DNA of 59,777 nt from Lachnospiraceae bacterium (GTDB lineage: Bacteria > Bacillota > Clostridia > Lachnospirales > Lachnospiraceae): NCBI GenBank assembly GCA_011958945.1, contig BLLT01000002.1:1-59777 (forward strand). Reading direction: 5' to 3'. The notes beneath the pieces were generated by a model. The model saw only the letters and a program-made list of their open reading frames with translations. It ran no database searches and was not told the origin of the DNA. How positions within the stretch are numbered: position 1 is the first letter of the stretch; every line of letters starts with the position of its first letter. A program made the translations under genes and the position numbers. Below, piece by piece: positions 37,645-48,769 of the stretch.

Positions 37645-39816
37645 ATGGATATTGGAATGACAAAAAACAGGGCGAAGGAATTAGGCTATTATTTATTTTT
37701 CGGGATTATGGTTTTGGCAAAAGGTATCGGCCTGGACAGCGGGAGGAAGAGTTATTATGTTTTAAGCGCCGTTGCGTGCATTTGTATTTTTTGTAAGCTG
37801 ATTCTCACAAAATACAATATCCGCCAGATATTGGCTGTGGGGTTTTTATGCCTGCTGGCATTTGTGGCGTATAGAAATTCGGGAAGGATGGGAATATTAC
37901 TTACGGTGCTGGCCATTATCGGGATAAAAGATATGGATGTAAAAAAATTATTTCGCATAGGACTGGCCATTTATGGATGTTCGTTTGCTTTTACGGTTAT
38001 TGCGGCAAAGCTTGGATTGATTTATAACCCTATGGCAGTGCACGAAAAAGGCGGCATGGAACTGATTCGGTGGGGGATGGGATACAGCACAGGGAATATT
38101 TTCCATGTGTCGTACTTTATGCTGACCGTCTTCTTGTGCTATACATGGGGGAGAAAATATAATTTTAAAAAGATGTTAGTACTGATGGCAGGGAATCTGG
38201 CAGTTTTCTTTTATTCGTTAAGCTATACGGGGATTGCGGTGACAGCGTTTTACCTGCTGATTAGCCTGTATGCGGCGGGGAAGGAGAAGGCGTTTGAAAG
38301 GGAAGGCCGCCCAGGGGAATGTATGCAAGAGGGGGGCGCAGAAAAGTGCAGTGAAGGGAAAATCAGTATGGGGGAGCGCATCCTGTGTCAGCTGCCATTG
38401 CCTTTATGCCTGTTGTTTTCCTTTGGAGGGCCTTTTCTATTGGATTACCCTTTTATGCAGAAGCTGAATGTGCTGCTGCAGGCGCGGCTTTCTTTTTCCG
38501 CCTATTATTTAAAAAACCAGCCTATTACCCTACTGGGAACCAGGATGAAAAATGTTCCAAATTTCTGGATTATCATGGATAATGGCTATGTATATTTTAT
38601 GATGACATTTGGCCTGGTGGCTTTCGGCCTGTTTTGTGCGGGCTATGCCATATTGATTGCACGGTATAGCAAAAAAGGAAGGCTGCCGGAATTGGCGATG
38701 ATTTTTTCATTCCTGCTGTATGGGATTATGGAGCAGTTCATTTCCAATGCGTTTATGAACCTGTCGCTGCTGTTTATGGGGGAGGTTTTGTTTGGCCCGC
38801 AGGAGCAAGGGTGGATGTCCGGCGGAAGGGAACGGACTTTGTTTGAGTTATTTAAGAGGGAAGAAGACGGACTGGAAAAGAAGAAACCTATTCCGGAGGA
38901 AAAGAGTAAGGTTGGGGCGAACCGTTTACTGAAGGGGGAGGACGGAACGGAAAGAAGTGTCAGCAGGAAAAGACCAGGAGAAATGATAGGGAATGAAAGA
39001 GGGGGCTTTAGGCTGTGGCTCACGGGTCTGGTTATAGGAATCGGAGTCACGGGGCTTTACTTGGCTTTGGTACCCATGAAAGAATATGTGACTGCCAGGT
39101 TAGATACCGTATTATATGTGGATGCACAAAGTGTTCAAATAGGATTGGAAAATGAGGGGAATACAGAAGAAGGGCTGACGGAAGGGATGGAATATTTCCG
39201 GGAACTGGTGACTGAAAAGGACAGATTGGAAAGGGCTGTCATTCAAGCCGGGCTGGAAAACAGGATTTCGGCAGAGGAATTGGCAGCGGCCATGGAATTT
39301 TCGATTCCGGTTGCGGTGCAGGGGAGCGGGCAATGGGATACTTTCAGGATGCGGCTTCTGGAACTGTATTATGATATATCGGATGAGGAATACGGCAGAC
39401 TGCTGGAAGGGATATTGGGGTATGCAGGAATGTCTTGGAGTGAGGCCGCATCGCAGCAGGAGTCTGTACAAGGGCAGGATTCGGGATCGCAGGAGAACCC
39501 CGCATCATTGCAGGAGTCCGTACCAGGGCAGGATTCGGAATTGCAGGGAAACCCCGCATCGCAGCAGATAATGGAAGATGGGGGCTATACGATAAAGGGC
39601 GGTATATATGCGGAGCGGGTAGGCAAAAGCTTCGGGGAGGACAGGATAGAGCATATCAGCGGAAAAGATAGATATTTCATAGAGAAAACGGGAAGCATTG
39701 CGGCGCTGGAGCATTACAGGGATGGGGTGTTCTGGGGGATTGCAGCGGCAGCTGTGTGGTTTGTTATATATCTGGTAAATATGCATTTCCCGATTTTGAA
39801 AGGAGCAAAAAGATAA
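37645..39816 (+). CDS. Wzy-like polymerase with C-terminal two-helix extension
   Basis: A 723-residue membrane protein. Residues 1-380 have about ten hydrophobic segments and look like an exopolysaccharide polymerase; a Gly/Glu-rich loop lies near 210-245. A charged stretch (about 385-450) then leads to an extra membrane helix (about 455-475), an extracellular-looking part of about 210 residues with two 18-residue repeats, and a final helix (about 694-716). Two helices around an outside domain is the topology of Wzz-type chain-length regulators, but I see no sequence match to Wzz, so this is only a suggestion. AGAAAGGG precedes the ATG. The GT4 gene at 39819 begins 2 bases after its stop. Confidence 0.7.
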   Translation: MDIGMTKNRAKELGYYLFFGIMVLAKGIGLDSGRKSYYVLSAVACICIFCKLILTKYNIRQILAVGFLCLLAFVAYRNSGRMGILLTVLAIIGIKDMDVKKLFRIGLAIYGCSFAFTVIAAKLGLIYNPMAVHEKGGMELIRWGMGYSTGNIFHVSYFMLTVFLCYTWGRKYNFKKMLVLMAGNLAVFFYSLSYTGIAVTAFYLLISLYAAGKEKAFEREGRPGECMQEGGAEKCSEGKISMGERILCQLPLPLCLLFSFGGPFLLDYPFMQKLNVLLQARLSFSAYYLKNQPITLLGTRMKNVPNFWIIMDNGYVYFMMTFGLVAFGLFCAGYAILIARYSKKGRLPELAMIFSFLLYGIMEQFISNAFMNLSLLFMGEVLFGPQEQGWMSGGRERTLFELFKREEDGLEKKKPIPEEKSKVGANRLLKGEDGTERSVSRKRPGEMIGNERGGFRLWLTGLVIGIGVTGLYLALVPMKEYVTARLDTVLYVDAQSVQIGLENEGNTEEGLTEGMEYFRELVTEKDRLERAVIQAGLENRISAEELAAAMEFSIPVAVQGSGQWDTFRMRLLELYYDISDEEYGRLLEGILGYAGMSWSEAASQQESVQGQDSGSQENPASLQESVPGQDSELQGNPASQQIMEDGGYTIKGGIYAERVGKSFGEDRIEHISGKDRYFIEKTGSIAALEHYRDGVFWGIAAAAVWFVIYLVNMHFPILKGAKR
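39448..39567 (+). repeat. 54-base in-frame tandem repeat (2.2 units)
   Basis: Units 39448-39501 and 39502-39555 plus 12 bases of a third encode 18-residue blocks with core ASxQESVxGQDS. They lie in the predicted outside part of the C-terminal extension of the polymerase. Confidence 0.9.
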
Positions 39817-39818
39817 CC

Positions 39819-41030
39819 ATGAGAATAGCAATCGATCTGACTTCCCTGGCGGATAATTTTTCAGGGATAGAGCGTTATGCTATGAGCATAGCCAAGGAAC
39901 TTATCGAGATGGACGCCGAGGGAAAGGATACTTATATTTTACTTTTTAAAAGGAAAATCCACCCGGCATTTCAGCAGTACAAGGGTAGGAAAAATATTAT
40001 TTTTAAAGTCTTCCAGGGGCAGAATAAGCTGCTGTTTGCCCAAGTGCGGCTGCCCTTCCACCTCTATGGGATAAAGGCGGATGTTTTCCTGTTTCTGGCT
40101 TTTCAGGGGCCGATTCTGTTCCGCCGCAGGGGCATTTACAATATGATTCCGGATTTAGTGTGCTGGGACTGTCCGCAGACGATGAAGAAACATATGGAAT
40201 GGTATTTTAAGCTGTCTATACTGAACGCATTGTGGGCCAGCGAGGGAATCATAACTATCTCTAAATTTACCAGACGCCGAATTATAGAAAAGCTGCACTA
40301 CCCCAAGGAGAAGCTTACCGTGGCATACTGCGGAATTTCGGATGTATTCATGGATTATGTGAAGCAACAGCCGGGCAGCGGGGATATGGACGTGGCGAAG
40401 AAAGAAGATGCCCTTAGAAACAGGGCTTTGGATGTAAGGCATAAATATCATCTGCCGGAACAGTACCTCCTTTGCCTTGCTACGCTGGAACCGAGGAAAA
40501 ACCTGGCTTTCCTGGTGGAGGCTTATCTGGAACTGCTAAAGGAAGGAAAACTGAACATTCCGTTAGTGCTGGCCGGGAGGAAAGGCTGGAAAATGGATGA
40601 GTTCCTGGAGAAGGTGGAAAACGAGCATAAACAGAAAATTATCGTGACTGGTTTTATCGAGGACGAGGACTTGCCTTACGTGTACCATATGGCGGATTGC
40701 TTTATTTTTCCTTCCATTTACGAAGGCTTCGGCATGCCGCCGTTAGAGGCGATGGCGGTAGGTACAATGACCATTTCTTCGGATGCAGCATCCCTTCCGG
40801 AGGTGCTGGGGAAGGCGGCATCTTATTTCCATCTGGGGGATAAGGCAGAACTGAAGGAAAAAATGTGCCAGGGAATCAGACAGGAATGCGGAGACGTAAC
40901 GGTGGAAGAAATCCGGAAGCGGGTGGATAGATTCCAGTGGAGGAAATCGGCAAGGGTGATATATCGGGTGATAAGAAAGGAGAAGGGAAGGTATGGGGGT
41001 ATATTTAAATCCGGGAAGCGGAAGGTTTGA
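39819..41030 (+). CDS. GT4 family glycosyltransferase (MtfB-like)
   Basis: A 403-residue GT4 enzyme: IAIDLTSLADNFSGIERYAMSIA loop, IYNMIPDLVCWDCPQTM (about residues 106-122), TISKFTRRRI, LATLEPRKNLAFL (about 218-230) and E-x7-E as EGFGMPPLE (about 301-309) with SDAASLPEVLG. AAAGGAG (39799-39805) precedes the ATG. Its last 13 codons (from 40993) run in another frame over the start of a degenerate ATPase gene, so its natural end may have been replaced when that gene arrived. It probably closes the left glycan unit. Confidence 0.85.
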   Translation: MRIAIDLTSLADNFSGIERYAMSIAKELIEMDAEGKDTYILLFKRKIHPAFQQYKGRKNIIFKVFQGQNKLLFAQVRLPFHLYGIKADVFLFLAFQGPILFRRRGIYNMIPDLVCWDCPQTMKKHMEWYFKLSILNALWASEGIITISKFTRRRIIEKLHYPKEKLTVAYCGISDVFMDYVKQQPGSGDMDVAKKEDALRNRALDVRHKYHLPEQYLLCLATLEPRKNLAFLVEAYLELLKEGKLNIPLVLAGRKGWKMDEFLEKVENEHKQKIIVTGFIEDEDLPYVYHMADCFIFPSIYEGFGMPPLEAMAVGTMTISSDAASLPEVLGKAASYFHLGDKAELKEKMCQGIRQECGDVTVEEIRKRVDRFQWRKSARVIYRVIRKEKGRYGGIFKSGKRKV

Positions 41031-41522
41031 AGAATCCATTGCATCGGAGATTTATGTGGATAAGACAAAGCTGATAGAATATACGAATTTATAGCCCTAA
41101 ATCTGTTGTTTCGGCCATGAGGTCGGGGCGTTTTGGTACTTATTGGAATAAAACAGAAACCTTTGAGGCCTTAAGAGATTATATCAATATGAATTTTAAT
41201 GGACTGAAAGATTCTGTGGTTGGACTTCTGGCAGGGGTAAGGAAAAAAATCGACATTGGAACTTTTGCTAATGATATGACTAGTCTCGAAACGGCGGATG
41301 ATGTGCTGACATTGCTGATACATCTGGGTTATTTGGGGTATGATCCAGTATTAGAAGAAGTGTATATTCCTAATACTGAAGTAGCAACTGAGTTTGTTAA
41401 TGCGGTGAAAAGTGCGGGATGGGACGAAGTAGTCCGGGCGGTGAAAAATTCTGAGGATAGGAATTAACTATGATAAAAATAGCAAGAAACATCAATGTGT
41501 GATTGAAAAGGTATTGACATAG
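40993..41522 (+). pseudogene. Internally deleted AAA-ATPase/PD-(D/E)XK family gene
   Basis: Three in-order remnants of one known type of gene. 40993-41094 encodes MGVYLNPGSGRF and SEIYVDKTKLIEYTN, the usual N-terminus of the AAA-ATPase-like (PF09820) family, then a stop. 41096-41467 encodes PKSVVSAMRSG and TADDVLTLLIHLGYLGYD, which in intact proteins lies in the middle and before the nuclease domain. 41469-41522 encodes YDKNSKKHQCVIEK and a stop, typical of the family's last residues. Walker motifs and the nuclease core are gone. It is related in type to the intact gene at 42341. Confidence 0.75.
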
Positions 41523-41573: not shown

Positions 41574-41603
41574 TTGCCGCACCACTGGAAAACCAATGGT
41601 GCG
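41574..41603 (-). terminator. Terminator of the first Spo0A-C-like gene
   Basis: GCCGCACCACTGG (41574-41586), loop AAAA, CCAATGGTGCGGC (41591-41603): 12 pairs with one mismatch. On the minus strand the stem is followed by AAATTTTT, as expected for an intrinsic terminator downstream of the gene ending at 41673. Confidence 0.65.
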
Positions 41604-41672
41604 GCGATTTATAATTCAATAAGGGGATGCTGTATCATTTGTCAATTCCATAATATATGGAATCAGTAAGCC

Positions 41673-42014
41673 CTACCTTTTCCCAGCCGGATGCCTGAAA
41701 TGATAGTCCACAAGCATTGCGATAAAGTCCTTAGGCGGAAGCGGTACTGTGCCCTTATATCCGGTAATGCGCCGGAAGTTTTCACCATTTCCATATGCCC
41801 AGTAAACTCTCAGAAATGTACGTATCCCTTGCTGGATAGAATCCGGCGAGGTGTGGTAATGCTGTGCGGCATCCACATAAAAATCTTTGATGCGAAATGG
41901 TGTAGGTTCGTTGTTTTGTGCGACAATCCGGTCGATAATGTAGGCCAGATAATGATACCCCTTATAAGAAGAGGCTGCTCCGAGGTGGGATAATAGGTCA
42001 TAAGTTTGTTGCAT
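41673..42014 (-). CDS. Stand-alone Spo0A C-terminal domain protein (A)
   Basis: A 113-residue protein made almost entirely of a Spo0A C-terminal (DNA-binding) domain: LLSHLGAASSYKGYHYLAYIIDRIV, then KDFYVDAAQHYHTSPDSIQQGIRTFLRVYW (about residues 44-73), which parallels the Spo0A recognition helix region ([24 protein letters not shown]). The receiver domain of true Spo0A is missing, so it cannot be switched by phosphorylation in the usual way. The C-terminal 35 residues (NFRRITGYKGTVPLPPKDFIAML) are shared by all three paralogues here. AAGGAGGTATGAAAACA precedes the start, and an out-of-frame ATG sits right after the AAGGAGG. Confidence 0.75.
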   Translation of the reverse strand: MQQTYDLLSHLGAASSYKGYHYLAYIIDRIVAQNNEPTPFRIKDFYVDAAQHYHTSPDSIQQGIRTFLRVYWAYGNGENFRRITGYKGTVPLPPKDFIAMLVDYHFRHPAGKR

Positions 42015-42113
42015 TTGTTTTCATACCTCCTTGTATAAATGATGCTCCGCAGGAAGCAGGCGTCAGGCGAAAAAGTATGGCTTTTGCCTTTTGGCTGGTT
42101 CTGCGGATAAATA

Positions 42114-42142
42114 ATAGTATCAAGAGAATGTTATACGGTAAA
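42114..42142 (-). promoter_or_regulatory. Promoter candidate for Spo0A-C-like gene A
   Basis: Read on the minus strand: TTTACC (42142-42137), 17 bases, TACTAT (42119-42114). It lies about 100 bases before the start at 42014. No clear Spo0A box (TGTCGAA) was found by eye in the divergent region 42015-42340, which also holds a plus-strand promoter. Confidence 0.4.
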
Positions 42143-42291
42143 GGCAGGGGAGGAGAAGGGGGGAATGTAAATTTTATTAAAAAATTGTAAATTTGTCATT
42201 CATTGGCTGCTAACCGCGCAGCAAGTGCGCAGTTGCAGGCTGAACTGTTGCGATTTCCCTGTGTCCCTGTGAAATTCCCTTGCCAGTTAAA

Positions 42292-42319
42292 TTGCAAAGT
42301 GTTATTATTTTTGTATAGA
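42292..42319 (+). promoter_or_regulatory. Promoter candidate for the AAA-ATPase gene
   Basis: TTGCAA (42292-42297), 16 bases, TATAGA (42314-42319), 22 bases before the start at 42341. Confidence 0.5.
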
Positions 42320-42340
42320 GAAGATAATAGGAGCGGAGGC

Positions 42341-44041
42341 ATGCCAAGAACAGTAGCGATAGGGGTACAGGATTTCAGTGTTATCAGAGAAAAAAATTAT
42401 TTTTATATAGATAAAACATCTTTCATCAAGGAATGGTGGGAGGGAGGGGACAATGTAACATTGATTACCCGCCCCCGTCGTTTTGGAAAAACTTTGATGA
42501 TGAGTACGGTGGAGCAGTTTTTCTCTGTAAAGTATGCTGGCCGCGGAGAACTGTTTGAAGGGTTGGAAATATGGAAGGAAGAGGAATACTGCAGGATACA
42601 GGGAACTTATCCGGTAATAAGCATTTCATTTGCAAATGTTAAAGAAAAGAATTTCCAAGCCACAAAAGAGCGTGTATATCAGATTCTTACAGATTTATAT
42701 TCGCAATATTCCTTTTTAAAAGAATGGGATAAATTATCGGACACGGAAAGAGAATATTTTGACAGGGTTTCTTTGAGGATGAGGGAAAGCGATGCAACTT
42801 ATGCATTGCATAAATTATCCCAGCTTTTGGCCGCATATTATGGGAAAAAGGTGATTATCCTGCTGGATGAATATGATACTCCGATGCAAGAGGCATATGT
42901 GGGCGGATATTGGGATGAAATGACGGGATTTTTCAGGAGCATGTTTAACGCCGCTTTTAAAACAAATTCATGGATGGAAAGGGGAATCCTGACGGGGATT
43001 ACCCGTATAAGCAGGGAATCCGTGTTTTCCGATTTGAACCATTTGGAGGTAATCTCGGCTACTTCTGCCAAATATGCGGCAATGTTTGGATTTACACAGG
43101 AGGAAGTATTTGCAGCGTTGGATGAATTCGGGCTGAAAAGCAGGAGGGAAGTAAAAGAATGGTATGACGGATTTACTTTTGGAGAAAGGGAAGATATCTA
43201 TAACCCATGGTCCATTATCAATTTTCTGGATAAACGAAAACTGGCGTCATATTGGGCGAATACAAGTTCTAACGGACTGGTCAGCAAACTTATTCGCGAG
43301 GCAAATAAGAATATTAAACTGGAGTTTGAAAGGCTGATGCAGGGTGGGCATTTGCTTGCCTCCCTTGATGAACAGATTGTGTATGACCAGTTGGAGGATA
43401 ACGATGAAGCGATTTGGAGCCTTTTGCTTGCCTGCGGATATTTAAAGGTTGTTCATGGAACAACGGCGAAAGAAGGGGAAGATACGTCTTGCCTGGAGCA
43501 AGGGTACGAACTGGCATTGACTAACTATGAAGTGAAACGGATGTTTTCGGGGCTCATACGAGGATGGTTTGGAAAGGTATCCTATGACTATAATGATTTT
43601 GTAAAGGCACTCTTGACAGGGGATATAAAAGCAATGAATGCTTATATGAACCGCATTACCATGACGATGTTTAGCTTCTTTGATACAGGAAAACGGCCTT
43701 CAGGGGCAGAACCGGAACGCTTTTATCATGGGTTTGTGTTGGGGCTGCTGGTGGAATTGGAAAACCGCTACAGGATTAGTTCAAATAGAGAAAGCGGCTT
43801 TGGAAGGTATGACGTTATGATGGAGCCGTATTCAGATAAGGATTGGGCGATTATACTGGAATTTAAGGTATATGACCCAAAGAAAGAGGATGGATTAGAG
43901 GATACCATAAAGGCGGCGCTGCTCCAGATAGAAGTAAAAAAATACGAAGCGGAATTCATGGCCAGAGGCATAAAAAAGGAGCGGGTTCGGAAGTATGGAT
44001 TTGCTTTTGCAGGAAAGGCAGTTTTAATTGGGGAAGGTTAA
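42341..44041 (+). CDS. AAA-ATPase with C-terminal PD-(D/E)XK nuclease-like domain
   Basis: A 566-residue protein of the AAA-ATPase-like (PF09820) plus PD-(D/E)XK_9 (PF08011) family. IGVQDFSVIREKNYFYIDKTSFI starts it; ITRPRRFGKTLMMSTV (about residues 41-56) is the Walker A region; VIILLDEYDTPM (about 172-183) is Walker B; LTGITRISRESVFSDLNHL follows. The C-terminal part has GRYDVMMEP and WAIILEFKVYD (about 503-513), giving the Asp and Glu-x-Lys of a PD-(D/E)XK core. Such genes are abundant and often multicopy in gut Clostridia and Bacteroides; mobile or defence roles are suspected, not proven. ATG 42341 follows AGCGGAGG. It stands between minus-strand Spo0A-C-like genes, with its own promoter. 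Confidence 0.88.
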   Translation: MPRTVAIGVQDFSVIREKNYFYIDKTSFIKEWWEGGDNVTLITRPRRFGKTLMMSTVEQFFSVKYAGRGELFEGLEIWKEEEYCRIQGTYPVISISFANVKEKNFQATKERVYQILTDLYSQYSFLKEWDKLSDTEREYFDRVSLRMRESDATYALHKLSQLLAAYYGKKVIILLDEYDTPMQEAYVGGYWDEMTGFFRSMFNAAFKTNSWMERGILTGITRISRESVFSDLNHLEVISATSAKYAAMFGFTQEEVFAALDEFGLKSRREVKEWYDGFTFGEREDIYNPWSIINFLDKRKLASYWANTSSNGLVSKLIREANKNIKLEFERLMQGGHLLASLDEQIVYDQLEDNDEAIWSLLLACGYLKVVHGTTAKEGEDTSCLEQGYELALTNYEVKRMFSGLIRGWFGKVSYDYNDFVKALLTGDIKAMNAYMNRITMTMFSFFDTGKRPSGAEPERFYHGFVLGLLVELENRYRISSNRESGFGRYDVMMEPYSDKDWAIILEFKVYDPKKEDGLEDTIKAALLQIEVKKYEAEFMARGIKKERVRKYGFAFAGKAVLIGEG

Positions 44042-44053
44042 AAAAGACAGAAA

Positions 44054-44088
44054 CTGCCGCACCATTTAATGCTTAATGGATGCGGCAG
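44054..44088. terminator. Terminator-like hairpin after the AAA-ATPase gene
   Basis: CTGCCGCA-CCATT (44054-44066) pairs with AATGG-A-TGCGGCAG (44075-44088), one bulge, loop of 8. It resembles 41574-41603 (shared CCGCACCA). The right flank lacks T; on the minus strand the A-run at 44041-44046 becomes a T-run, so it may serve the minus-strand gene ending at 44194. Confidence 0.5.
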
Positions 44089-44133
44089 CTGCATAGCTGC
44101 TGGCAGGCGAAATCCAATCGACACAGCAGCCCT

Positions 44134-44164
44134 GTAATCCTTCAGCAGCAGGCTGAAGGATTAC
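44134..44164. other. Perfect 13-base inverted repeat
   Basis: GTAATCCTTCAGC (44134-44146), 5-base loop AGCAG, GCTGAAGGATTAC (44152-44164). It lies between the AAA-ATPase gene and Spo0A-C-like gene B. No T-run on either side; it may be RNA structure or a site for a dimeric DNA-binding protein. Confidence 0.5.
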
Positions 44165-44193
44165 GCGGTTTCTGCTCCGGCCAACATTTCTGC

Positions 44194-44529
44194 TTAGCCG
44201 GGGTTTCTCCTCAGATAATCAGAGAGGACAGCAATAAATTCTTTTGGCGGCAGCGGTCCGGCATTAGGGTATCCGGTAACATTACGGAAGTATTTGCCGT
44301 TATCCTGTCCCCAGTATGTATCCAGGATAGTCCGTATGCTATGCTGGATGGCATCGGGCGATACATGATAATGTTCGGCGGCATTCTGATACAGGGCTTT
44401 GCTGGTTAGAAAAGGGCCGTTCGCATCCGTGGCAGCATGATGGATGATGTGGACCAGAAAGGGATATCCACGGTAGGACGGATTGATGCCAATCCTGATT
44501 AACATTTCGGAAACATAATTCTTTTCCAT
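44194..44529 (-). CDS. Stand-alone Spo0A C-terminal domain protein (B)
   Basis: A 111-residue paralogue of A and C: LIRIGINPSYRGYPFLVHIIHHAA, then KALYQNAAEHYHVSPDAIQHSIRTILDTYW (about residues 43-72), then NVTGYPNAGPLPPKEFIAVLSDYL. It lacks a receiver domain. It is the most divergent of the three (MLIRIGINPSY in place of LLSHLGAASSY). AAGGAGG lies 8 bases before ATG on the minus strand. A TGCTATTAT at 44577-44569 could be an extended -10 with no good -35. The nearby hairpins at 44054 and 44134 are downstream of it. Confidence 0.72.
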   Translation of the reverse strand: MEKNYVSEMLIRIGINPSYRGYPFLVHIIHHAATDANGPFLTSKALYQNAAEHYHVSPDAIQHSIRTILDTYWGQDNGKYFRNVTGYPNAGPLPPKEFIAVLSDYLRRNPG

Positions 44530-44654
44530 AGTATTTTCCTCCTTAGTAAAAGTTGATTTTATTATCTAATAATAGCATAATATATTGGGAGAAAATTCCA
44601 ATAAAAAAGAGTTAAAAAGACAAAAAAGGACGAAAAAAGAAGAAAAAAGAAACG

Positions 44655-44782
44655 CAGCCAGGCTTTATTCCCACACACAAGGTGTGTCCTTTAGGGTAGT
44701 TGGCAAATTTGCAAAGGTATTTGCAGCTTTTGGCATTACCCACTTGGCTCGTTGCTCGCAGGGCGGGAATAAAGCCCAGCTG
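44655..44782. other. 128-base palindromic element
   Basis: CAGCCAGGCTTTATTCCC (44655-44672) and GGGAATAAAGCCCAGCTG (44765-44782) are inverted copies at 16 of 18 positions. Inside, ACACA/TGTGT and GCAAATTTGC add smaller stems. It fills most of the gap between Spo0A-C-like genes B and C and ends 17 bases from the stop of C. It may be a terminator, a MITE-like repeat or a structured RNA. The rest of 44530-44798 shows an A-rich stretch and nothing else recognised. Confidence 0.55.
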
Positions 44783-44798
44783 TTATAGAACCATTATA

Positions 44799-45143
44799 CT
44801 ATATCCTTGCCGAATTCCTTAAAAGATAGTCCACAAGCACTGTTATGAAGTCCTTGGGCGGAATCGGCACTGCACCTCTATAGCCTGTAACTTTCTGGAA
44901 ATGCTTGCCATTTTCAAGCATCCAGTAGTTCTTAAGGAAAGTGCGTATACTTTGCTGGATGGAGTCCGGTGTCGTGTGGAAACGCTGTGAGGCATCCGCA
45001 TAATAGTCCTTCATGAGGAAGGGGGAGGGCCCATTGCTCTGCTCCACAATCCGGCAGACAATATACGCCAGATAATGGCATCCCTTATAAGAAGGGCTTG
45101 CCCCGATATGGGACAATAGTTCATAAATTTGTTCTGTACACAT
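44799..45143 (-). CDS. Stand-alone Spo0A C-terminal domain protein (C)
   Basis: A 114-residue paralogue very close to A: YELLSHIGASPSYKGCHYLAYIVCRIV, KDYYADASQRFHTTPDSIQQSIRTFLKNYW (about residues 45-74), KVTGYRGAVPIPPKDFITVLVDYL. A lone DNA-binding effector domain without receiver suggests that it competes with, or partners, Spo0A or binds its own sites. Its leader (AAGGAGGTATGAAAACATG) is nearly identical to that of A, which supports a recent duplication of gene plus control region. A promoter candidate lies at 45241-45213. Confidence 0.75.
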   Translation of the reverse strand: MCTEQIYELLSHIGASPSYKGCHYLAYIVCRIVEQSNGPSPFLMKDYYADASQRFHTTPDSIQQSIRTFLKNYWMLENGKHFQKVTGYRGAVPIPPKDFITVLVDYLLRNSARI

Positions 45144-45212
45144 GTTTTCATACCTCCTTGAATGAATGATTTTCCCCTTGGTGTTTAGTTGGTTGGGGAA
45201 GATTTATATGTG

Positions 45213-45241
45213 TATATATTATCTTTCGGCAAAATTTGCAA
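45213..45241 (-). promoter_or_regulatory. Promoter candidate for Spo0A-C-like gene C
   Basis: On the minus strand: TTGCAA (45241-45236), 17 bases, TATATA (45218-45213). It faces away from the plus-strand promoter at 45303, so the two units are divergent. Confidence 0.45.
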
Positions 45242-45302
45242 TTGAGTTATAGTTTAAGGCAATGAATTTTAAAGGAATTTTTAAGAGGGGCTTCGTAATT
45301 AC

Positions 45303-45331
45303 TTGTATCTATTGCCTATGTATGCTATAAT
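45303..45331 (+). promoter_or_regulatory. Strong promoter of the ABC-exported glycan unit
   Basis: TTGTAT (45303-45308), 17 bases, TATAAT (45326-45331) preceded by TGC, a consensus extended -10. The first gene starts 33 bases later at 45364. Confidence 0.75.
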
Positions 45332-45363
45332 TTCCCAAAACACAGCGGCCAAAGGAAAAGAAT

Positions 45364-46593
45364 ATGTTATTTCAACAGATAGCCAAAGAGATGGCAAAAA
45401 GAATGTTGTCTGATGATATGAAAATAAAGGTCAGAAACGTAGCAGCAAAGTACCGGAATAGGGAGATGCTTCAAAAGCATGCACAAACGCAACCATATCA
45501 GGAAGGCGCTTACCCCACAGGCATAAATTTAATCGGAGATATCAGTGCGGAGACGGGACTGGGACAGAGTATGAGGATATTGGCATCTATAATGGAAAAT
45601 GGCAATATCCCTTTTTGTGTAAAACAAGTGAATTTGCATGGACAGTTAGAGCATAATGATATTTCATGGAAGCATAAGTTGGTGGATTCTCCTATGTATG
45701 CTATAAATGTGATAAATTTAATTCCAGAAAATTGGGCATCAGATTATTGTTGCTTGGATAAGGATATATTAGATAAAAGATATAATATTGCCTATTGGCC
45801 TTGGGAACTGGAAGAATTTCCAGCCAGATGGGTACCATGTATAGAGACTGTGGATGAGATTTGGACTCCATCAGAGTTTACTAGCAATAGTCTCCGGAAA
45901 AAGACGAGTAAGCCAGTGATAACTGTTCCGCATATTGTGGAAGCGCAAGGACATTATGGGAGAAAATATTTTGACCTACCGGAAGAAAAATTTCTTTTTC
46001 TCATGATATATGATTTTATCAGTATCAGTGAGCGGAAAAATCCGCAGGCTGTTATTGAGGCATACAAAAAGGCATTCCCGTCAGAAGAAGAGAATGTGGG
46101 TCTGATTATCAAAGTGAATCATGGGGATGAAAAAAAGCTGACACAGTTAAGGGAACAGCTAAGAAATTATAAAAATATATACTTTTTTACTACAAATATG
46201 ACGAGGGAAGAAGTAGATTCTTTGATGGACAATGCAAATGTTCTTGTTTCCCTTCACCGTTCAGAAGGGTTTGGGCTGCCTGTAGCCGAGGCCATGTCGC
46301 TGGGTAAACCAGTCATATCCACTAATTGGTCAGCGACAGCAGAGTTTACGGATGAAACATGCGCCTGCCCGGTGGATTATAGATTGATAAAGATTGAAAA
46401 AAGTGTTGGCCCATATGAAAAAGGTAATTATTGGGCGGATGCGGATACTTCCCACGCGGCATCTTATATGAGACATCTTTGGGAAGATGAGGCTTATGTG
46501 CGTAAGATAGGGGAGAATGCAAAAAAATATATCAAAGAAAATTTGACATATGAAATTGCAGCTAATATAGTGAAGGACAGGCTAAAACGATGA
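45364..46593 (+). CDS. GT4 family glycosyltransferase
   Basis: A 409-residue GT4 enzyme. A basic N-terminus of about 50 residues precedes GINLIGDISAETGLGQSMR (about 53-71), the acceptor-side loop. VDEIWTPSEFTSNSLRKK follows, then VNHGDEKKLTQLREQ. The E-x7-E motif is EGFGLPVAE (about 301-309) with SLGKPVISTNWSATAEF. It is the first gene after a strong promoter. Its stop overlaps the Wzm start by 4 bases (ATGA), tying it to the ABC exporter. Donor unknown. Confidence 0.88.
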   Translation: MLFQQIAKEMAKRMLSDDMKIKVRNVAAKYRNREMLQKHAQTQPYQEGAYPTGINLIGDISAETGLGQSMRILASIMENGNIPFCVKQVNLHGQLEHNDISWKHKLVDSPMYAINVINLIPENWASDYCCLDKDILDKRYNIAYWPWELEEFPARWVPCIETVDEIWTPSEFTSNSLRKKTSKPVITVPHIVEAQGHYGRKYFDLPEEKFLFLMIYDFISISERKNPQAVIEAYKKAFPSEEENVGLIIKVNHGDEKKLTQLREQLRNYKNIYFFTTNMTREEVDSLMDNANVLVSLHRSEGFGLPVAEAMSLGKPVISTNWSATAEFTDETCACPVDYRLIKIEKSVGPYEKGNYWADADTSHAASYMRHLWEDEAYVRKIGENAKKYIKENLTYEIAANIVKDRLKR

Positions 46594-47366
46594 AAACAAT
46601 AAAAGAATTGTATGATTATAGAGAAATGATTATCAGCTTAGTGCGCAGGGAATTAAGGGGAAAATATAAAGGATCCATACTTGGTTTTTTATGGGCATTT
46701 ATTAATCCGTTGCTTCAATTGGTGGTATATACTATTGTTTTTACTTTTATTACGAGAAATAATATGGAGGACTTTTATTTATATTTGTTTGTAGCCCTTA
46801 TTCCATGGATATATATCGGTTTTTGTATGACGGGCGGGGCTACCAGCGTTACTAGCCAGACAGAGATGGTAAAAAAGATATATTTCCCCCGTCTCGTACT
46901 TCCCATATCCTATGCAACGAGCCAGTTTGTAAATATGCTGCTTTCATTTGTAGTGATATTTATTGTTTTGATTTTATCAGGAAAGGGAATCAGCCTAAAG
47001 GCAATTATTTATCTTCCGCTTATTATGCTGATTGAATATGTATTCGGGATGGCAATCGCCATATTATTTTCGTGCATTAACGTATATCTTAGGGATTTGG
47101 AACAAGTATCGGGTGTTTTATCTATGGCATGGCAGTTTCTTTCCCCTGTGCTTTATTCGGTGGAAGTTATACCAGAACAGTACAGGAATATCTATATGCT
47201 GAATCCCATTGCCCCTATGGTAGTGATATACAGGGAGATTCTATATTATAAAAGGGTTCCCGATATCAGTATGTTTTGGAATCCGCTGTTTTTTGCAACA
47301 GTATTGTTTATTGTGAGCTGCATTACATTTTCCAAATTAAAGAAGCATTTTGCGGAGGAGTTATAA
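46590..47366 (+). CDS. wzm: ABC-2 polysaccharide export permease
   Basis: A 258-residue ABC-2 type membrane protein with about six helices, the usual size of Wzm/TagG-type permeases. LVRRELRGKYKGSILGFLWAFINPLLQLVVYTIVF (about residues 17-51) is the hallmark N-terminal region, and LNPIAPMVVIYREILYY (about 208-224) is the conserved segment near the C-terminus. With the ATPase at 47405 it would export a finished lipid-linked chain. It overlaps the preceding GT4 by 4 bases. Confidence 0.92.
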   Translation: MKTIKELYDYREMIISLVRRELRGKYKGSILGFLWAFINPLLQLVVYTIVFTFITRNNMEDFYLYLFVALIPWIYIGFCMTGGATSVTSQTEMVKKIYFPRLVLPISYATSQFVNMLLSFVVIFIVLILSGKGISLKAIIYLPLIMLIEYVFGMAIAILFSCINVYLRDLEQVSGVLSMAWQFLSPVLYSVEVIPEQYRNIYMLNPIAPMVVIYREILYYKRVPDISMFWNPLFFATVLFIVSCITFSKLKKHFAEEL

Positions 47367-47404
47367 ATTGCAGTAAAATGTTTTGACATGGAGGATTGAT
47401 AACG

Positions 47405-48769
47405 ATGGAATCAGGAAATGCCATTGAAGTACGGGATATTACAAAGTCTTTTAAAATATATATGGATAAAGGCAGTACATTTAAGGAAAAGGTAATTTTC
47501 CGGAACAGGCGCAGATATGAGGAACGCCCGGTTTTGAAAGGAATTTCTTTTGATGTAAAGCGGGGAGAAGCTATTGGATTAATAGGGCATAACGGATGTG
47601 GAAAAAGTACAACGTTAAAATTACTGACCAGAATTATGTATCCCGATTCTGGGAGCATAGAAATTAAAGGTCGTGTGTCTAGCCTAATTGAATTGGGAGC
47701 AGGGTTTCATCCGGATATGAGCGGCAGGGAAAACATATATATTAATGCTTCTATTTTCGGACTGACAAAGAAAGAGATTGACAGAAGAGTGAACGATATC
47801 ATTACCTTTTCTGAACTGGAAGATTTTATTGATAATCCAGTGAGGACTTATTCATCGGGAATGTATATGAGGCTGGCTTTTTCTGTGGCCATTAACGTGG
47901 ACGCGGAAGTATTGCTGATTGATGAAATACTAGCAGTAGGTGACGTGAATTTTCAGCAGAAGTGTTTTGAAAAACTGAAGGAAATAAAGAGAGAGGGAAC
48001 AACTATCGTCATTGTTTCCCATTCCCTTTCCCAAATTGAGCAAATATGTGAACGGTCCATATGGATAGATAAAGGGAAAATAAAGGAGGAGGGACGTCCC
48101 AAAGAGGTTCATGAAAAATATCTTTCCACAATGGAACAGGAAAGGATGAACCGGATAGAAGAAGAGGAGAAAAGAAAAGAAGAGGAATGGCAAAAGGCAG
48201 GAAGGGAAGAAAATACAGCTGGGAAAGAAAACGAAAAAAGCCAGGGCGAAGCGGTTAACAGAGATAGGAGCAAAGAAGGAGAACTGAAAAAAATCCCTTC
48301 TTTTTGCAACAGTAATGCGATACGGAGAGGAAACCAGAAAATTGAATTTACGAATATATATATCTTAAATCATCAGCAAGAGAAGAAAAAACTGGTTCGT
48401 ACAGGGGAAGAGATGAAGCTGATGATAGAATATCGGTGCGCGTCTCAAATAACGGAAGGAACATTTGGGATTGGTATATATAAGGAAGATGGGTTATACT
48501 GTTACGGAACGAATACAGATATTGAATTGAAGAAAGCGCTGCCTATAGAGGAACAGGGCTTTCTGGAAATCACAATACCCAGACTTCAGCTGCTGGCAGG
48601 GAAATACAATGTGAATGTGGCGGTACATTCCAAAGACGCTGTGGAAATTTATGATTATATATGGAATGTAATCGAATTTCAGGTCTTTAATACAAAAGGG
48701 GATGACGGGCTGTATAGAATGGATACCGTATGGGTATATAATGGGAAAGAAATTATAGATAATCGGTAG
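47405..48769 (+). CDS. wzt: ABC polysaccharide export ATPase with carbohydrate-binding domain
   Basis: A 454-residue ATPase. Walker A GHNGCGKSTTLKLL (about residues 57-70), signature YSSGMYMRLAFSVAI (about 143-157), Walker B VLLIDEILAVGD (about 162-173). After about residue 245 comes a Glu/Lys/Arg-rich stretch to about 300, then a beta-rich domain (about 310-450) like Wzt C-terminal domains that recognise the capped non-reducing end. ATG 47405 lies 10 bases after GGAGG (47390-47394). The C-terminal domain and the neighbouring methyltransferase suggest that export is tied to chain capping, as established for O9a-type systems. Confidence 0.92.
   Translation: MESGNAIEVRDITKSFKIYMDKGSTFKEKVIFRNRRRYEERPVLKGISFDVKRGEAIGLIGHNGCGKSTTLKLLTRIMYPDSGSIEIKGRVSSLIELGAGFHPDMSGRENIYINASIFGLTKKEIDRRVNDIITFSELEDFIDNPVRTYSSGMYMRLAFSVAINVDAEVLLIDEILAVGDVNFQQKCFEKLKEIKREGTTIVIVSHSLSQIEQICERSIWIDKGKIKEEGRPKEVHEKYLSTMEQERMNRIEEEEKRKEEEWQKAGREENTAGKENEKSQGEAVNRDRSKEGELKKIPSFCNSNAIRRGNQKIEFTNIYILNHQQEKKKLVRTGEEMKLMIEYRCASQITEGTFGIGIYKEDGLYCYGTNTDIELKKALPIEEQGFLEITIPRLQLLAGKYNVNVAVHSKDAVEIYDYIWNVIEFQVFNTKGDDGLYRMDTVWVYNGKEIIDNR

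Follow-up and report, generated by a model that had tools for sequence, protein, structure and literature searches.

Three minus-strand genes, called A, B and C here, encode proteins that consist of little more than the DNA-binding effector domain of Spo0A, the textbook phosphorelay output and master switch of sporulation. They lie in a surface-glycan locus of the window, the whole stretch of 59,777 nucleotides that we analysed. At about even chances, we read them as phosphorylation-independent, retargeted local regulators made from this effector domain, probably serving the glycan locus itself.

Three genes with a Spo0A effector domain and no receiver

The existence of three such genes was proposed in a preliminary description of the sequence, and the profile search bears it out. 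Gene A (41673..42014, 113 aa), gene B (44194..44529, 111 aa) and gene C (44799..45143, 114 aa) all match PF08769 above its cut-off of 25 bits, with 59.9 bits (E 2.7e-16), 62.6 bits (E 3.9e-17) and 52.3 bits (E 6.2e-14) respectively. Spo0A_C spans nearly the full 111-114 aa and a receiver domain is encoded in none of them. The TIGR02875 equivalog score (cut-off 200 bits) is missed by all three (34.8, 29.8 and 22.6 bits). A, B and C share the effector sequence, the fold and the R217 equivalent with Spo0A proper (TIGR02875; PF00072 + PF08769), but lack the receiver and have E213 and R214 replaced. Each gene has an ATG start and an AAGGAGG-like ribosome-binding site (RBS), the latter read by eye.

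The suggested structural comparison gave the same answer for B, whose AF2 model, built from a 70-row alignment (A4), has six helices with mean pLDDT of 91.5 and pTM of 0.86. In Foldseek against PDB, 2 matches reached E<=0.001 (1fc3/1lq1), the top seven were all Spo0A-C chains, and the TM-score by query length was 0.72-0.83. A shared tail had been described as an addition to the domain; it is present in the three proteins, but it is no extra element, being the end of Spo0A_C itself (canonical ..GKPTNSEFIALIADK..).

All three genes appear intact and under purifying selection, judged from the A/A, B/B and C/C pairs of this genome and two relatives (G000-G002). Against the G001 and G002 orthologues, dN/dS is 0.19-0.20 for A (67-69% identity), 0.03-0.05 for B and 0.09-0.10 for C, values that are approximate because dS of several pairs is 0.6-1.3. 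A and C were thought to have been duplicated together with their control region. The duplication itself stands, with 72% likeness over 300 nt of gene and 88% over about 33 bp around the RBS, but farther upstream the two promoters differ.

Two other genes accompany the array. An intact AAA-ATPase_like/PDDEXK_9 gene (42341..44041 from its likely ATG, plus strand; PF09820 and PF08011) lies between A and B, as had been described. The dead relative was also recovered: tblastn with 541-aa paralogues found three plus-strand pieces of another ATPase subfamily at about 40990..41510, which correspond to residues 8-40, 276-402 and 514-534 of a paralogue of that length. Pfam gave nothing in its one open piece.

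An altered DNA-reading helix in a narrow family

A, B and C belong to one family of 15 members ("type-3"), which is found in only 8 of the 16 genomes of one Lachnospiraceae genus. The B type is the one with relatives in all 8 of these genomes. In the tree, type-3 forms one clade (SH-aLRT 95) with A and C nested inside it (99), and this A+C branch is confined to three of the genomes. With few columns in the alignment and one long-branch row that may be joined to type-3 falsely, we take from the tree no more than the type-3 clade and the A+C branch within it.

The residues Glu213 and Arg214 of Spo0A, which we take to be those that read the bases of the 0A box, are absent from the whole family: Glu213 is replaced by Gln and Arg214 by His or Gln in 15 of 15 type-3 proteins. 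With both replaced, type-3 proteins should not read normal 0A boxes. The R217 equivalent is invariant in 70 of 70 alignment rows, and the E213 position is E in 15 of 15 type-2 proteins. The 'short' receiverless Spo0A_C paralogues of Lachnospiraceae (L097-L136; 107-141 aa in 42 of 44) are also without receiver and have an IRT-like sequence after the helix, but unlike type-3 they keep E or D at 213 in 43 of 44 cases. Their neighbours include Mn-catalase-like genes, a two-component system and others. For the distant receiverless loci, a two-component system adjoins 9 of 40 and nucleotide-sugar genes are near 5 of 40, while most of these paralogues lie beside other genes.

The glycan neighbourhood

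On one side of the array lies a conserved pair of plus-strand genes, namely a multi-TM protein without Pfam match (37645..39816), typed by eye as wzy-like, and a GT4 glycosyltransferase convergent with A (39828..41030, PF00534). On the other side, a glycosyltransferase divergent from C (45364..46593, plus strand, PF00534) starts the next glycan unit and is followed by a Wzm/Wzt-type polysaccharide ABC exporter (46590..48769, plus strand; PF01061, PF00005, PF14524).

It turned out that 7 of the 8 type-3 loci lie directly 3' of the wzy-like/GT4 pair, a synteny within one genus that reflects shared descent and is not independent evidence. In G008, the type-3 gene is about 770 kb from the pair. 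A homologous divergent glycosyltransferase is present on the other side in 3 loci, with that side cut by the contig end in G002, G003 and G013; homologues of the 45364 gene are divergent from type-3 genes in G001 and G012, while the divergent neighbour in G015 is a different gene (1020 aa, with a sub-threshold AAA_14 match). All 16 genus genomes have matches to the wzy-like gene, whose synteny holds for 6 of the 7 relatives' loci; each of the 16 also has a single GT4 match at E<=1e-60 (partial in G005). The earlier proposal of a regulatory switch for the flanking glycan units is plausible and gains some support from the synteny, but the pair occurs in 16 of 16 genomes and type-3 genes in 8 of 16, so the locus can do without type-3.

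Promoter elements

The B promoter contains TTGG-N9-CCAAT, an inverted repeat of TTGG/CCAA (44584..44601, minus strand), which is a candidate autoregulatory operator. It is kept in 7 of 7 readable B-type promoters, in every case begins 71-73 bp upstream of the start codon, and is kept even in G008, where the gene sits elsewhere; left out of the promoter counts are C of G002, with only 39 nt upstream, and B1 and B2 of G013, whose upstream sequence is unreadable (23 nt; N run). The core pattern TTGGNNTTTTNNNCCAAT has one match in the 5.07-Mb genome and 0 for the reversed control. With one mismatch allowed, a 19-bp version of the element has 12 sites in the genome, compared with 3 for its reversed control, and because 9 of the 11 other near-matches fall inside ORFs, no regulon is claimed for it. 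The element was not found in the promoters of A, C or the window's glycan genes that were checked, so no common target is visible.

Between C and the glycan operon, the divergent promoter region (45144..45363) contains TTTTGCCGAAA (45224..45234, minus strand), which includes the 0A box consensus TGNCGAA as given in PMC4690370 and is a candidate site for the canonical receiverless Spo0A of the genus. TGCCGAA is also present upstream of C in G001. In the window as a whole, 0A-box-like matches are no commoner than chance (23 vs 19.7 in shuffles).

An intrinsic-terminator-like hairpin follows A (41576..41605, minus strand), and a related one (repeat I7), found by eye, follows B and lies at the end of the ATPase gene as well (44056..44086, minus strand). 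The promoter scan (9 vs 11.5 in shuffles) and the terminator scan (5 vs 4.1) were near shuffle expectation, and we rely on their hits only where a comparison backs them. The Rfam scan of the window returned 0 families.

The canonical Spo0A of the genus

The preliminary description assumed that Spo0A needs its receiver for control. This premise fails here, because the lineage's own canonical spo0A lacks a receiver in 16 of 16 genomes. Its VERAIRH helix is unchanged. Despite this loss, spoIVA and SASP genes remain in the genus. As the main Spo0A is receiverless too, the textbook switch appears rewired. The structure model of the receiver-deleted protein has a mean pLDDT of 75.5 with a low N-terminal part, for which reason we make no claim about its fold.

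Receiverless Spo0A as such is already known from phages, as described by Schwartz et al. 2023 (PMC10294663). A literature search, with preprints and most subscription papers outside its scope, found nothing on receiver-deleted chromosomal Spo0A in Lachnospiraceae, and the available part of PMC6136694 has 0 occurrences of "Lachnospir".

Alternative explanations

It is unlikely, in our view, that the three proteins are competitors which occupy 0A boxes or mixed sites and either oppose or aid the canonical Spo0A in its control of sporulation. The common fold, the TGCCGAA box in the C promoter and the unchanged helix of the equally receiverless canonical protein would suit such a role, but both base-reading residues are replaced in every type-3 member, while the first of them stays E or D in nearly all other receiverless paralogues. 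The replacement also makes the plain Spo0A decoy of the preliminary description disfavoured. About as unlikely as competition, or marginally more so, is that A, B and C are no longer specific for DNA and modulate Spo0A through mixed dimers with it or with each other. Three diverged copies in one array and an otherwise well-kept domain would fit such partner proteins, as would the fact that phosphate-driven dimerisation is impossible without a receiver; the invariant R217 equivalent and the conserved B-promoter element speak against them.

Domesticated phage genes of the kind described in PMC10294663, originally used against host sporulation, are a still less probable source. Phage-carried truncated spo0A (phrog_24603) likewise has the effector domain without receiver in about 110 aa, phrog_24603 matches A, B and C at 6e-17 to 1.4e-13, BFVD contains phage entries called Spo0A C terminal (E 0.006 to 0.05), and 5 gut phage records match B. 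However, these best phage matches are only 24-27% identical, and our genes are chromosomal, lie in a glycan locus and form a duplicated array. The neighbours scanned are glycan genes, no relative was confirmed in viral_contigs, and none of the 4 phage rows in the tree groups with type-3, though two of these (L160 and L161) have receivers and the branch of L159 is very long. Least credible by far is a mobile or defence module formed with the ATPase gene. The gene is physically interleaved with the array, a decayed second copy lies alongside, and G001 keeps a 38-bp match to its promoter-like edge; but PF09820 matches are dispersed, with 28 in this genome (fragments included), 33 in G002 and 0 in G008 and G012, both of which carry array-type genes nonetheless. 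In the loci of seven relatives, three of which are truncated by contig ends close to the genes, the ATPase gene was not found, and in G001 and G002 the array is compact and lacks it. PADLOC gave no match for A, B, C or the decayed piece, and one weak match for the ATPase (E 0.008, homing endonuclease). We rejected the ATPase partnership on the dispersed copies, the relatives' loci and the compact arrays; the recurring association that had been predicted was not seen, and the gene is judged incidental.

Proposed mechanism and implications

As retargeted local regulators without receiver, A, B and C should have an activity set by the amount made, perhaps also by partner choice, and not by a kinase. 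With E213 changed to Q, R214 to H or Q, and R217 kept, the recognition helix would be retargeted, so that the proteins would recognise other sites than the 0A box. TTGG-N9-CCAAT is the site by which B probably governs its own promoter, while A and C, as a separate branch, may act as paralogous regulators. The most likely role of the set would be to tune the surface-glycan operons that flank it, at 37645-41030 and from 45364 onward.

On a wider scale, and with rather less assurance, it is possible that a large Lachnospiraceae group gave up phosphorylation control of Spo0A with the DNA-reading domain intact and the spore genes kept, and that receiverless paralogues, including the recoded A, B and C, spread and took over other surface and developmental loci. 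In the orthologous spo0A of this group (spoIVB-spo0A-glgA), a conserved mini-domain of some 36 aa, with KEFQIMITVPS as majority motif, would have taken the place of the receiver. If so, sporulation there would start by protein amount or by an unknown ligand or partner, and not by the phosphorelay. If the local reading is true as well, a gut lineage with no receiver-bearing Spo0A in its genome would show a master switch dismantled and its DNA-binding half reused, and the spore decision and surface-glycan change in such bacteria would become testable.

Domain, fold and duplication of the array genes

The window genome (5.07 Mb, 97.7% complete) is assembled in 709 contigs, of which C2 is the window. 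Three minus-strand genes, A (41673-42014), B (44194-44529) and C (44799-45143), lie where the preliminary description placed them, and Pfam domain search confirmed that each encodes a protein with the Spo0A_C domain only. The structure model of B (input alignment of 70 rows) reached a pLDDT of 91.5, and its seven best matches in the PDB are all Spo0A-C, both DNA-bound and DNA-free. The shared C-terminal motif had been regarded as an extra tail, while protein alignments place it at the end of the Spo0A_C domain itself. The leaders of A and C, said to be nearly identical, are indeed alike but only at 88% over 33 nt, and the DNA identity of the two genes is 72% over 300 nt.

Close relatives of the array exist in Lachnospiraceae bacterium strain 526-35, MAG S4_Bin4 and Lachnospiraceae bacterium 28-4. 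The window genome was compared pairwise with two genomes of the same genus, G001 and G002, and these with each other (Nei-Gojobori, own script): dN/dS spans 0.15-0.20 in A, 0.03-0.05 in B and 0.09-0.10 in C, approximate values because dS is 0.6-1.3. Judged from sequence, all three look like living genes. Besides, related GCCGCACCATT hairpins stand at the ends of A and B (41576-41605 and 44056-44086), and a similar sequence also stands before A in G002.

Distribution and genomic position

In the profile search, this family (type-3) accounted for 15 genes scoring above 170 bits, spread over 8 of the 16 genus genomes. The top score outside the genus was 76 bits among 397 family genomes, two from the genus included; within this sampling, type-3 is thus restricted to the genus. 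All three genes occur in the window genome, G001 and G002; the 65%-complete G013 contains two type-3 genes, and G003, G008, G012 and G015 contain a single gene of B type. In a quick-method tree of 84 rows and few columns, type-3 forms one clade (support 95) with an A+C clade nested inside (99), and this clade falls among many other short paralogues that lack a receiver; the deep forks are weak.

In 7 of 8 loci (window, G001, G002, G003, G012, G013 and G015), the type-3 genes lie immediately 3' of a gene pair, one wzy-like and one GT4 (37645-39816 and 39828-41030 in the window, both plus strand); the sole exception is G008. The pair itself was matched, close together on one contig, in all 16 genus genomes, indicating a core glycan locus with the type-3 genes as accessory genes at its end. 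On the divergent side, a homologous glycosyltransferase is found in the window, G001 and G012, followed in the window by genes for an ABC exporter that includes a Wzt_C domain (Pfam); G015 has a different gene (1020 aa) there, and in G002, G003 and G013 this side is interrupted by contig ends.

The PF09820/PF08011 ATPase gene between A and B (42341-44041, plus strand) had been considered a possible partner of the array, but no recurrent pairing was found. PF09820 has no match in 6 of 16 genus genomes, including G008 and G012, despite the array-type genes there; A, B and C are closely spaced without the ATPase gene in G001 and G002; and no ATPase protein match was obtained in the loci of seven relatives, three of which end at a contig edge near the genes. 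On this comparison of sequences, we take the ATPase to be a bystander. A 38-bp match in G001 to a promoter-like stretch at about 42280-42317 makes insertion in the window genome and loss in G001 both possible. The decayed relative at about 40990-41510 belongs to a different subfamily. PF09820 genes are greatly multiplied in some genus genomes (24-47 matches, many of them fragments), namely the window genome (28), G002 (33), G004 (47) and G009.

DNA-reading helix and promoters

All 15 type-3 proteins have Q at the position of Spo0A E213 and H or Q at that of R214, residues whose numbering and roles we assume here, while the R217 equivalent is invariant in 70 of 70 aligned proteins. In the alignment for the 213 position, which omitted one type-3 row (C of G002), E or D is kept in 43 of 44 short paralogues from other genera, and E in 15 of 15 type-2 proteins, a second receiverless paralogue. 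It is thus in the type-3 group that the reading residues were altered. This change points to new DNA targets and speaks against simple competition at the DNA sites of Spo0A (0A boxes).

For the promoters, TTGG-N9-CCAAT begins 71-73 bp before the ATG in all seven readable B-type promoters, G008 included, and this core pattern occurs once in the window genome (0 for the reversed control). The promoters of A and C are each conserved, distinct and unlike that of B. In the C promoter, TTTTGCCGAAA matches the 0A box TGNCGAA (PMC4690370), and TGCCGAA is retained upstream of C in G001. We infer a plausible wiring in which canonical Spo0A would act on C through this box and B would regulate its own promoter.

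Other receiverless Spo0A_C genes

Type-2 proteins (L047-L060; 127-153 aa), with canonical reading residues and a VERAIRN helix, exist in 14 of 16 genus genomes and were not found in the window genome or G005. A close relative of these lies on a 7-kb putative phage scaffold (L158).

From the best short-frame matches in the 397-genome search, we surveyed 40 loci with 44 focal genes in other parts of the family. In nine loci from nine genomes (L097, L101, L103, L107, L108, L111, L113, L126 and L127), the receiverless gene adjoins genes for an OmpR/PhoB-type response regulator and for a histidine kinase that is unusually long at 825-880 aa, directly divergent in eight and with an intervening ORF in one. 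Mn-catalase-like genes and nucleotide-sugar genes are each nearby in 5 of 40 loci, neighbours being partly judged by eye from protein starts; Pfam confirmed one of the sugar genes in each such locus. Receiverless Spo0A_C genes appear to be a class of small regulators that extends across the family. G425 and G115, both of genus g101, have 10 and 7 A3 matches, on several contigs or far apart (L114-L116, L118, L119 and L124).

Truncated receiverless spo0A is known from gut phages (PMC10294663), and phage forms are also represented by phrog_24603 and in BFVD. Our literature search did not turn up the chromosomal class, the altered reading helix, the glycan-locus array or a receiver-deleted canonical Spo0A.

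Receiver-deleted canonical Spo0A

The window genome has only four Spo0A_C matches. Its canonical spo0A (L001:1480-2004, contig C40; A5 alignment) sits between spoIVB and glgA, named from their protein sequences, and the product has no Pfam Response_reg match, which a receiver-bearing relative (L029) does have. What is left of the receiver is a conserved N-terminal stretch of about 36 aa, with the majority sequence KEFQIMITVPS at its end; a variable linker joins it to the effector domain, which is intact. All 16 genus genomes share this layout, as do one g4 genome and 19 others from 17 genera. In G275 the deletion differs and keeps the last receiver segment (L138:1279-1839), apparently an independent event.

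Among the 150 stronger Spo0A matches listed across the family, which by a count made by eye come from 148 genomes, 23 have frames below 230 aa, and most of the receiver is missing in all 23 (the window genome, G003, G018 and 20 others). In G008, G011 and G014, assembled in 1-3 contigs, the longest Spo0A_C frame is at most 198 aa, so an assembly gap does not explain the absence of a receiver-bearing Spo0A there. G007 and G010 each encode an additional Spo0A-like protein that is divergent and falls on a very long tree branch, with a receiver shown by Pfam in L045 and by likeness in L046.

The spoIVA and SASP genes were found in all 16 genus genomes, so these spore genes at least are retained. 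In the wider setting of Spo0A, the loss of the receiver is a greater surprise than the array itself.
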